Shown piece after piece: positions 2,811-22,710 of a stretch of 27,542 bases of DNA; position 1 is the first letter of the stretch, and each line of letters starts with the position of its first letter. The translations under genes were made by a program, and so were the position numbers. Source of the stretch: a virus. Where the stretch lies: positions 1-27,542 of IMG/VR virus record IMGVR_UViG_3300009159_000253; one strand, 5' to 3'. The notes below the pieces were generated by a model that was not told the DNA's origin, made no database searches, and saw only the letters and a program-made list of their open reading frames with translations.

Positions 2811-3140
2811 ATGAGAAAAGTTATTGAATTTGTTAAAAAGTATAAGATACATATCTTAACCTCTTTATTGGTTATTTTCTTTTTCCGTTCATGTTCCAAG
2901 TCAGGAGATGTTAGAAAACTAGAAAAAGTTAATATTAGAACTACTAAAATTGTTGATAGTTTGACCACTGTTATAAAATGTCAGAAGGACACTATTAATA
3001 ATATTTCTGAAGTCATTAGAGTTGAAAAAATCAAAATTCATACCGAATATGATAACTACATTTCATCTAAAAATAGAGGAGAACAATTAATGGAATTACA
3101 TAAAATTGTTAAACAAAATCTTAAAAACTTAGAAAAATAA
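2811..3140 (+). CDS. small membrane-anchored coiled-coil protein (possible inner-membrane spanin)
   Basis: 109 residues. A single hydrophobic segment (about 14-27, ILTSLLVIFFF) follows a basic N-terminus, giving an N-in, C-out anchor. The remainder is polar and helical with coiled-coil character. A Cys just after the membrane segment (FRSCSKSGD) gives a weak lipobox-like look. The layout of N-terminal anchor plus periplasmic coiled coil matches Rz-type inner-membrane spanins, and an amidase lies about 1.5 kb downstream, but no family is recognised. The stop codon overlaps the start of the GIY-YIG gene (TAATG). Function is a contextual guess. Confidence 0.7.
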   Translation: MRKVIEFVKKYKIHILTSLLVIFFFRSCSKSGDVRKLEKVNIRTTKIVDSLTTVIKCQKDTINNISEVIRVEKIKIHTEYDNYISSKNRGEQLMELHKIVKQNLKNLEK

Positions 3141-3868
3141 TGTTAGATGTTTTTATATATACACTTAGTGACCCAATAACTAACGATGTTAGATATATTG
3201 GTAAAACTAATGATGTAAAATTTAGGTTTAATGACCATATAAAAAAATCTAAAAATAATAAAACACATAAAGATAAATGGATAAGTTCTTTATTGAATAA
3301 AGGATTAAAACCTTTAATTTCAATTATAGATACTGTTCATGAAGATGGTTGGGAGTTTTGGGAGATATTTTATATTAGTTTATTTAAGACGTGGGGGTTT
3401 AATTTGGTAAATCATACTGAAGGAGGTGATGGTGGGTCATTTAAAGAACATACTTATGAAAGTAAAATGAAAATGAGTAAAAGTAGGTTTGGTAAATCTC
3501 GAAAACCATTTACTGAAGAGCATAGGAAAAATTTAAGTGATTCTGCAAAGAAAAAAATTATAACTAAAGAACATAGGATAAATATTAAAAACTCACTTAA
3601 AAATATTGTTAGAAAACCATTTACGGAAGACCATAAAAAAAATATTAGCGAATCTAAAAAAGGTTTAGTTATGAGTGAGGAAAATAAAATGAAAATAAGG
3701 GAGTCATCCCCAAAAAAGAAAAAGATAATTTGTTCGGAAACTAAAGAAATTTATAGTAGTATATCTGAAGCTAGTAGAGCCCTTAAGATACCAATTAGTA
3801 CTATTGTTGGGGTATTAAAAAAAAGAAGAAATAACGCAAAAGGATTTAAATTTGGATATCATGAATAA
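3140..3868 (+). CDS. GIY-YIG homing endonuclease with NUMOD DNA-binding repeats
   Basis: 242 residues. The N-terminal GIY-YIG nuclease domain has IYTL near residue 6 and RYIGKT near 18-23, followed by a basic helix. Two NUMOD3-like motifs follow, each containing KPFTE.H..N.S (about residues 120-150 and 155-175). A C-terminal NUMOD1-like helix-turn-helix begins IICSETKEIYSSISEAS and ends KGFKFGYH. This is the modular design of free-standing phage mobile endonucleases, which cleave a site in a related genome and spread by repair. It is wedged between two membrane-protein genes, overlapping the first by 1 nt and the second by 8 nt. No intron boundaries are visible. Confidence 0.9.
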   Translation: MLDVFIYTLSDPITNDVRYIGKTNDVKFRFNDHIKKSKNNKTHKDKWISSLLNKGLKPLISIIDTVHEDGWEFWEIFYISLFKTWGFNLVNHTEGGDGGSFKEHTYESKMKMSKSRFGKSRKPFTEEHRKNLSDSAKKKIITKEHRINIKNSLKNIVRKPFTEDHKKNISESKKGLVMSEENKMKIRESSPKKKKIICSETKEIYSSISEASRALKIPISTIVGVLKKRRNNAKGFKFGYHE

Positions 3869-18542: not shown

Positions 18543-18854
18543 ATGGAAATTATACCAAAACATTGTATCGATATTTTTATTGATAAGTTTAAATCTTATC
18601 CCTCGGTTATCGAACTTAACCCAAGTAAGACTAAAGAATCAATCAATAAATTCTTAAGTAAGTCTGAGTTAGTTTGGATTAATGAATTTATAGGTGGTGA
18701 CGATAAAAAACATACAAAAGAAAAATTTGTAATCTACGATTCTACAGGAATCATGATATATATAAATGAAGAGTTAACTCTATTTATCTTAACTACAATC
18801 GATAGATATGAAGTTGCGAACTTCTCAATACAAACATTAAAAAGATTAAAATAA
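18543..18854 (+). CDS. hypothetical protein
   Basis: 103 residues, unrecognised. N-terminal HCIDIFIDKFKSYPSVIEL, a middle ELVWINEFIGGDDKKHTKEK and strands FVIYDSTGIMIYI then LTLFILTTIDRYEVANFSI. This is a small alpha/beta protein. It is translationally linked to the PcfJ-like gene (4-nt gap). Its stop overlaps an upstream in-frame ATG of the endonuclease gene that follows (TAATG at 18852-18856). Confidence 0.68.
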   Translation: MEIIPKHCIDIFIDKFKSYPSVIELNPSKTKESINKFLSKSELVWINEFIGGDDKKHTKEKFVIYDSTGIMIYINEELTLFILTTIDRYEVANFSIQTLKRLK

Positions 18855-18870
18855 TGATTTTTTTTAGTCG

Positions 18871-18901
18871 ACTTGGTGATATTTATAGTGAAACACCAAG
18901 T
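18871..18901 (+). promoter_or_regulatory. hairpin with embedded TATTTATA just before the GIY-YIG start
   Basis: ACTTGGTG (18871-18878) and CACCAAGT (18894-18901) are perfect 8-nt inverted arms around a 15-nt loop. The loop contains TATTTATA at 18880-18887. The 3' arm ends 3 nt before the ATG at 18905. Read-through RNA would fold and hide the start region; RNA begun just downstream of the motif would lack the 5' arm. T4 I-TevI is controlled by a similar arrangement. Confidence 0.5.
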
Positions 18902-18904
18902 AGC

Positions 18905-19564
18905 ATGGAAAAAAGTAAAATTTATAAAATCACAAATAAAAAAAATGATTTAATTTATATTGGTTGTACAATTAATTCTTTGAAAAGAAGGTTTCATGAA
19001 CATCTTTATAGGTGTTTTAAAACTGATTATAAATCAAAATTATATAATTCAATAAAAAAATATGGTCAAGAAAATTTTACCATAGAGTTGATTGAAGAAT
19101 GTGATTTAAACGTTATATATGAAACGGAAAAAAAATATATAAAACAATATGATTCATATAATAATGGGTTAAACTCTACATTCGGAGGTGAAGGGTGTTT
19201 AGGGTATATACATTCTCCTGAAATAAGAGTTAAAATATCTGAAGCGGTTAAAAATGGTAATTCCCATAAAGGGAAAACATATAAAGAGTTATATGGAGAT
19301 AATGCGGACGAAGAAAAAGAAAAAAGACGATTGTCCGTTGAAAAAGGTTGGGAATCAATGTCTGATGAGGATAAAAATAAACGAGTTAGTAAGATTAAAG
19401 ATAGTGCTCGTAAAAATTCTAAATATGGTGTTGATTTAATTAAAAAAATAAAACAAAAAATAAATGAAGGGGTAAAAGTTAAACAATTAAAAGAACTCTA
19501 TCCTCAAGTCAGTGAAAATTATTTCTATTCATTAAAAAATGGTAGAAGATGGTCGGATTTATAA
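18905..19564 (+). CDS. GIY-YIG homing endonuclease
   Basis: The preferred start is the ATG at 18905 (MEKSKIYKITNKKND), which places the GIY-like IYK at the family's normal position. A longer frame from ATG 18854 adds 17 residues not typical of the family. About 219 residues. IYIGCT and RRFHEH belong to the nuclease domain, and YGQENFTIELIEECD with ETEKKYIKQYDSY continue the conserved pattern. SPEIRVKISEAVKNG is NUMOD3-like. The C-terminus is a helix-turn-helix (KIKQKINEGVKVKQLKELYP). It is a free-standing mobile element. A hairpin with a TATTTATA loop sits just before the start. Confidence 0.87.
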   Translation: MEKSKIYKITNKKNDLIYIGCTINSLKRRFHEHLYRCFKTDYKSKLYNSIKKYGQENFTIELIEECDLNVIYETEKKYIKQYDSYNNGLNSTFGGEGCLGYIHSPEIRVKISEAVKNGNSHKGKTYKELYGDNADEEKEKRRLSVEKGWESMSDEDKNKRVSKIKDSARKNSKYGVDLIKKIKQKINEGVKVKQLKELYPQVSENYFYSLKNGRRWSDL

Positions 19565-19584
19565 ATAAAAATTAACTTAAAATT

Positions 19585-19908
19585 ATGGAAATTACAACAG
19601 AAGAATTAAAACAAAAAATTGAAAATGGCGATAAATTAATTGTGGACTTTTGGGGCACTTGGTGCCAACCATGTCGCATAATGAAACCCGCTTTTGAAAA
19701 AGTTGCTGAGGAATATAGAAAAGAAAATTCAGAGGTCCAACTGTATACTATGGATATTGATAAAAATAAAGAATTTGCGGTTTCATTAGGTGTTAGAGCA
19801 ATTCCTACCGTTAAATCATTTTCAGGTGGTAAAGAAGTCCATACTCAATCAGGTATTCAAATGGTGTCGCAAATTAAACAATTAGCGAATAACTTAATCA
19901 ATGGATAA
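19585..19908 (+). CDS. trxA: thioredoxin
   Basis: 107 residues, standard thioredoxin length. The active site is WCQPC (26-30; the classic form is WCGPC), preceded by VDFWGT. The cis-proline loop RAIPTV places Pro74 opposite the active site. FSGGK and a final helix complete the fold. It reduces protein disulfides, for instance in ribonucleotide reductase, using electrons from thioredoxin reductase. The Gly-to-Gln change in the active-site dipeptide will shift redox potential. It overlaps the glutaredoxin gene by 8 nt, so the pair is co-translated. A TATAAATA lies at 19560-19567 across the upstream stop codon. Confidence 0.95.
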   Translation: MEITTEELKQKIENGDKLIVDFWGTWCQPCRIMKPAFEKVAEEYRKENSEVQLYTMDIDKNKEFAVSLGVRAIPTVKSFSGGKEVHTQSGIQMVSQIKQLANNLING

Positions 19909-22122: not shown

Positions 22123-22710
22123 TTAGTTTATTATTTTAAAAATATGTTTATAACAAGTTTTTCTGATTGACCCTTGATACCCGTTGTTTAATTTAACTCC
22201 ACGTAAACAACTTGATATTTTCATCCTAATATTTCGAGGACTACCCTTTGTAAATCCGTTTTTAATAAGGTAATTGGCACCATCAACTAAACTCTCAAAT
22301 ATAAATATCTCCATAGTATCAATATTTGTCAATGAAAACTTAAAAAAATTTTTATTCTTAATTAAATTATATTTTGATAGTTTAACTTTAACCTCATCAT
22401 TGAAGGTATTTCGTCTAAACTCATTTACAGTTGCTAAGTTATACCCAAAAGATATAACGTTGGATTTATAATTAGATATATAATAATTTTCTTTATCAAT
22501 TAACTTAGACTCGTCACAAATTTCCACTACCTCAAAAATAAATGAAGATTTACCGTATTTGTTGTATGATTTTTGTAAATGTGGATTATCATGAACACCC
22601 CGACCTAACATCCAAAAATGTTTATATTCTCTGTTTTTAACATTAACGGAGCTCCCAACATATACTTTATTATTTTGAGTATTTTTAATAATATAAATTC
22701 CTGATGACAT
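22123..22710 (-). CDS. GIY-YIG homing endonuclease (minus strand)
   Basis: 195 residues. SGIYIIKNTQNNKVYVGSS contains the GIY and YVG motifs. The conserved Arg-helix (KNREYKHF) and NPHLQKSYNKYGKSSFIFEV follow. The predicted catalytic Glu is in IDKENYYI. The C-terminal segment (MEIFIFESLVDGANYLI, then MKISSCLRG) resembles a NUMOD1-type DNA-binding tail. It is probably a free-standing SegA-like endonuclease. On its own strand a TATTTATA lies 6-13 nt before the start, in a 46-nt gap shared with the divergent gene at 22757. Confidence 0.9.
   Translation of the reverse strand: MSSGIYIIKNTQNNKVYVGSSVNVKNREYKHFWMLGRGVHDNPHLQKSYNKYGKSSFIFEVVEICDESKLIDKENYYISNYKSNVISFGYNLATVNEFRRNTFNDEVKVKLSKYNLIKNKNFFKFSLTNIDTMEIFIFESLVDGANYLIKNGFTKGSPRNIRMKISSCLRGVKLNNGYQGSIRKTCYKHIFKIIN

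Follow-up and report, generated by a model that had tools for sequence, protein, structure and literature searches.

The endonuclease gene and its insertion site

The window, by which we mean the whole stretch of DNA analysed, is a 27.5-kb piece of the genome of an uncultured phage. At 18905-19564 on the plus strand it carries a gene of 219 aa, counted from the ATG at 18905, whose match to the GIY-YIG domain PF01541 scores 29.9 bits against a cut-off of 22.6; to judge from the sequence, this gene is a free-standing homing endonuclease. Its orthologues are 56-78% identical, and gene and promoter motif TATTTATA are both kept in them, the motif exact or with one change. The left neighbour is a 103-aa gene (18543-18854, +), and the right neighbour is a thioredoxin-like gene (19585-19908, +) which also follows the endonuclease in orthologues. 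Three relatives, L026, L027 and L028, share both flanks, with the 103-aa gene directly before the thioredoxin gene; between the two, neither an endonuclease nor TATTTATA was found. One site is thus seen with both alleles, occupied in the window and empty in these relatives. The inserted element, with approximate limits 18855-19580 (+), consists of the leader and the GIY-YIG gene. Since the empty sites have neither, the comparison indicates that the leader arrived together with the endonuclease gene. We rejected the idea that the leader is a resident sequence acting as promoter for the thioredoxin gene, as it is missing at the empty sites.

Where does translation of the endonuclease begin? The frame is open from an alternative ATG at 18854-18856 (+), which overlaps the stop of the upstream gene as TAATG, and an in-frame ATG also occurs in the 5' arm of the orthologue L201. 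If translation were coupled to that of the upstream gene and started at 18854, the hairpin described below would lie inside coding sequence and have no regulatory role here. We consider this unlikely. In L002, L006, L009 and L010 stops close the upstream frame, and the start ATG is found in or beside the position of the 3' arm; the start of L203 aligns with the window's codon at 18905; the GIY-YIG domain begins just after 18905; and the ATG at 18854 is not conserved, sits at the insertion junction and is probably a product of it. Because orthologues carry these in-frame stops, 18905 appears to be the ancestral-type start, as the first-pass annotation had assumed, and 18854 is ruled out as the ancestral one. 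Note that 18854 remains in frame in the window, so leaky coupled translation might occur from it, which could open the hairpin and bypass the block.

Some further observations concern related genes. In a near-identical copy of the locus (L008 and L025, contig IMGVR_UViG_3300027782_000521) the endonuclease frame is broken by a short internal duplication, which is either real or an assembly artefact. The window also has two more GIY-YIG genes. In one (22123-22710, -), 5 nt separate TATTTATA from the ATG and there is no simple hairpin; the leader of the other (3140-3868, +) is without TATTTATA.

A hairpin at the start codon

The leader contains a perfect 8-bp inverted repeat, with the 5' arm ACTTGGTG at 18871-18878 (+) and the 3' arm CACCAAGT at 18894-18901 (+). 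The loop of 15 nt (18879-18893) holds the late-type promoter motif TATTTATA at 18880-18887 (+), and the 3' arm is followed by AGC and then by the ATG at 18905-18907. Direct reading thus bears out the earlier description of 8-bp perfect arms, a motif in the loop and an ATG three bases past the 3' arm. No Shine-Dalgarno sequence was found before the ATG at 18905; the structure covers the start codon and its surroundings instead. Perfect 8-bp inverted repeats with loops of 4-20 nt number 35 in the window against a shuffle mean of 21; among the 35, this is the only one whose arm has at least 4 G/C (shuffle mean 0.45). When the flanks were shuffled locally, an equally good stem spanning TATTTATA arose with p ~0.005.

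The RNA of 18840-18940 has a predicted fold of -16 kcal/mol (z = -2.75). In this fold an outer helix is predicted, whose U-rich 5' side (18858-18868, +) pairs with 18903-18904 and 18906-18914, so that this U-run/A-run helix covers the last two bases (UG) of the start codon together with the codons that follow; a comparable one is predicted in L002, L006, L009 and L010. From the spacing in T4 late promoters, late transcription is expected to start at 18893 (+/-2) on the plus strand. The predicted unpaired fraction of the start region rises from 0.37 in the read-through RNA to 0.72 in the late RNA. The folding that had been proposed as a check therefore gives a start region mostly paired in the one RNA and largely free in the other, by prediction.

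Hairpin in orthologous leaders

Is the hairpin maintained in evolution? The 63%-identical orthologue L203 has an 8-bp stem, ATATGGTG/CACCATAT, in which the 3' arm is kept as a pairing partner through two-sided changes relative to the window stem. In six sequences both sides changed in 3 of the 8 pairs, a modest support for covariation, as 19 to 71 of 500 shuffles were as good, depending on the measure. Together with the sequence and the statistics above, this is the evidence for the arms. Six base pairs are kept in L196, L197 and L206, where the 3' arm touches the ATG. In L199, L200 and L204 the motif is kept, as TTGGTGATATTTAT, and the 3' arm and with it the simple stem are lost, which rules out the simple stem as a family-wide feature; alternative folds over the start are predicted for their read-through RNA. 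The predicted unpaired fraction goes from 0.22 to 0.87 in L196 and from 0.14 to 0.80 in L203 between read-through and late RNA, while there is no gain in access for L200 and almost none for L198.

Even in orthologues that have lost the 3' arm the 5' half is conserved, and I-TevI represses its own late promoter (PMC2988022). Both would fit a reading in which the endonuclease binds the conserved TTGGTGATATTTATA as a DNA operator, the 5' arm being conserved for this protein binding. The similarity of the leader to the empty site, however, is at best 15/20, and shuffled leaders give means of 13.5-13.9 and maxima of 15-16. On these numbers we reject the idea that the leader copies the homing site, and we regard the operator as a very improbable explanation of the conservation, though an operator role could exist alongside the hairpin. 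The exact 15-mer TTGGTGATATTTATA is too AT-rich for a specific scan of the collection, in which most matches are unrelated contigs.

The promoter motif and the phage group

T4 late promoters have TATAAATA on the sense strand and are read by gp55/gp33 with the sliding clamp. The motif in the window is a different one, as the sense strand has TATTTATA, the reverse complement of the T4 motif. In the window it occurs 10 times where 6 are expected, a weak argument when taken alone, and it is the related genomes that give the motif its weight. In G004, a contig bearing a close orthologue of the endonuclease, sense TATTTATA lies within 50 nt upstream of 44 of 377 genes against 8 in antisense and about 1 expected, and in G007, another such contig, the counts are 48 sense, 17 antisense and 1.25 expected, the expectations being derived from the motif rate in coding sequence. 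Upstream of genes, antisense copies are thus much rarer than sense ones. In both contigs (loci L030-L062) the distances from the motif to the ATG are bimodal, 3-5 nt and 12-17 nt, and the 12-17 nt class has an A-rich extension, roughly TATTTATAATWAAA. As a side observation, late mRNAs of the 3-5 nt class could be leaderless, starting at or near the ATG.

Which genes have the motif? In the annotated isolate Flavobacterium phage immuto it precedes 8 of 20 virion genes and 1 of 50 named non-virion genes (p = 1e-4), in classes that we assigned from the product names of the record; antisense copies precede 1 gene of each class. The genes include terL, portal, sheath, tube, hub, tape measure and two fibre/spike genes. 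Within 60 nt of gp23 no TATTTATA was found in any of G004, G007 and immuto; a copy of its own is thus not a feature of every structural gene. PHROGs on ten of the motif genes of G004 gave portal as the only named product. That the motif is late-like had been claimed before; its enrichment before genes in the relatives and before virion genes in immuto supports the claim, and there is a good probability that TATTTATA is a late-gene promoter in this phage group, as far as comparison can tell. In the literature searched, we found no description of TATTTATA as a phage promoter and nothing linking a Flavobacterium phage with a late promoter.

What are these phages? Contigs with close orthologues of the endonuclease reach 322 kb, and the relatives in which the motif is enriched are jumbo phages. 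A T4-type gp23 capsid gene is present on both G004 and G007, and so is a tail-sheath match, which in G004 scores below the family cut-off. The isolates nearest by gp23 include Flavobacterium phages immuto, Rhodothermus phage RM378 and a Microcystis phage, and therefore the hosts are likely to be Bacteroidota. Shine-Dalgarno-like sites are rare in the relatives (15/377 and 10/335 genes).

Several observations from the same genomes may be recorded here. A Sigma-70-type factor with regions 1.2, 2 and 4 is encoded at 1950-2750 of the window and is a candidate regulator of a phage promoter class; a Sigma70_r2 gene is also present in G004 and G007. The factor of the window is doubtful as the sole reader of TATTTATA, since immuto has the motif and no Sigma70_r2 match was found in it. 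The T4-type portal gene of G004 (202751-205567, -; L040:2751-5567) has an in-frame HNH domain at about residues 194-282, intein-like or a nested insertion. At L155:698-722 a hairpin, TTGGTGATATTTATAAATAAACACCAA, surrounds the motif with no gene start close by.

Predicted start occlusion in other endonuclease families

In HNH genes the same TATTTATA is surrounded by arms unrelated to those of the GIY-YIG genes. For example, the HNH-type gene 259760 of G004, which has NUMOD3 and I-TevI-type DNA-binding motifs, has the arms ATCGTG/CACGAT, and its ATG extends into the second of them. Among its homologues, L280-L285 flank the motif with GGTTTCC/GGAAACC, while in L286 and L290 an AATCGA located between the motif and the predicted transcription start point pairs with TCGATT before the ATG. 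The 188751 family has the arms CCATATAT/ATATATGG with the ATG inside the 3' arm, and the leaders of its relatives L364 and L365 fold too. A further HNH family (L380, L396) has the promoter motif itself within the 5' arm. The HNH leaders of L289 and L307 are predicted to be open. In L294 (1425-1500) a strong terminator-like hairpin, CACCGGGGGA/TCCCCCGGTG, immediately precedes the TATTTATA of an HNH gene and may be a further means of stopping read-through.

It may be argued that TATTTATA is simply the endonuclease's own late promoter and that the hairpin is there incidentally or has no more than a weak modifying effect. Promoters and starts that are both AT-rich readily pair, and the orthologues noted above keep the motif after losing the 3' arm. 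Genes with the motif that are not endonucleases serve as a control for such pairing, and they were taken from five relatives and the window. We called a start occluded if the start region of a gene carrying TATTTATA was less than 30% unpaired in the predicted fold, a limit of 0.30 that was set after the first data set had been seen. By this measure, 28 of 38 endonuclease leaders, which include homologous and hence non-independent ones, are predicted to be occluded, against 24 of 112 other motif genes (p = 1.6e-8). With one median per family (8 families), the difference holds at p = 0.0016. Strong stems are found in 8 of 26 endonuclease leaders and 2 of 109 other motif genes. The predicted late RNAs of endonucleases and other genes are alike, with medians of 0.71 and 0.73. 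The 24 occluded controls are what a promoter with incidental pairing would give; yet occlusion is far commoner in endonuclease leaders than in other genes with the same promoter, as are strong stems, and the stem of L203 was maintained through two-sided changes. A promoter without a functional hairpin is thus rather unlikely, if somewhat less so than a start at 18854.

Discussion

Taken together, we think it probable, with some room for doubt, that the leader of this free-standing GIY-YIG gene is a timing switch for late infection. Read-through RNA from the upstream genes would carry both arms, and the hairpin with the outer U/A helix would bury the start at 18905, so that little endonuclease would be made early in infection. 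Late in infection, transcription would begin from the TATTTATA promoter in the loop. Because the start point at about 18893 falls after the 5' arm, the late RNA would be unable to form the hairpin and the start at 18905 would be free. Three elements of this scenario are inferred: where late transcription starts, that there is read-through early in infection, and how strongly translation is blocked. The first-pass annotation had proposed an I-TevI-like design that restricts the endonuclease to late infection, and the start at 18905, the late-promoter-like behaviour of TATTTATA and the predicted occlusion in read-through but not in late RNA, recurring over several endonuclease families, make this a well-supported reading.

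How does the leader compare with known systems? In I-TevI, I-TevII and I-TevIII, an RNA structure sequesters the translation start on early/middle read-through RNA, and the late promoter of I-TevI is placed so that the late RNA lacks the inhibitory strand (PMC2988022). I-TevI (from the td intron) and I-TevII are GIY-YIG enzymes like the one in the window, whereas I-TevIII is of the HNH type. Their genes lie in introns and have Shine-Dalgarno sequences, whereas the gene in the window is free-standing and has no evident one; and the late promoter of I-TevI is the T4 motif, whereas the leader in the window has TATTTATA. Closer in setting are T4 segB and mobE of Aeromonas phage Aeh1, which the review PMC2988022 describes as free-standing genes with a late promoter and a start-sequestering RNA structure; the review PMC3014915 has the structure as shown for mobE and implicated for segB. 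The leader in the window has such a structure by prediction, and its motif in the loop, with the expected start point, would exclude the inhibitory strand from late RNA. It differs from segB and mobE in belonging to another phage group, in its promoter motif and in having no Shine-Dalgarno sequence, and here several families with unrelated arms have leaders predicted to occlude the start. The T4 genes e, soc and 49 are late genes on early read-through RNA with the Shine-Dalgarno and/or AUG sequestered, so that the T4 examples include AUG sequestration, and in gene e the late promoters remove the 5' strand (PMC3014915); these are resident phage genes, whereas the gene in the window is a mobile endonuclease. 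The design is therefore already known from I-TevI, segB and mobE, and what is new is its occurrence in this phage group and with this promoter motif, and that it recurs across endonuclease families.

Was the design inherited or reached independently? The first-pass annotation had allowed for both convergent and shared design. Since arms and geometry differ between endonuclease families, convergence is favoured, and shared descent of the hairpin is not. Chances seem about even that unrelated GIY-YIG and several HNH families repeatedly built leaders with TATTTATA or its spacer in a start-occluding structure, which would have evolved several times. We would put at no better and no worse than that the scope of this recurrence, namely a wide T4-type group with few Shine-Dalgarno sites, whose nearest isolates infect Flavobacterium and Rhodothermus, among others.

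These results carry over a design known from a small number of T4 relatives to a large and little-studied phage group with few Shine-Dalgarno sites and a different late-promoter motif, and TATTTATA may be used as a late-promoter motif for annotating such phages. If selection repeatedly delays selfish endonucleases outside introns, the protection of intron splicing would not be the sole reason for the delay.
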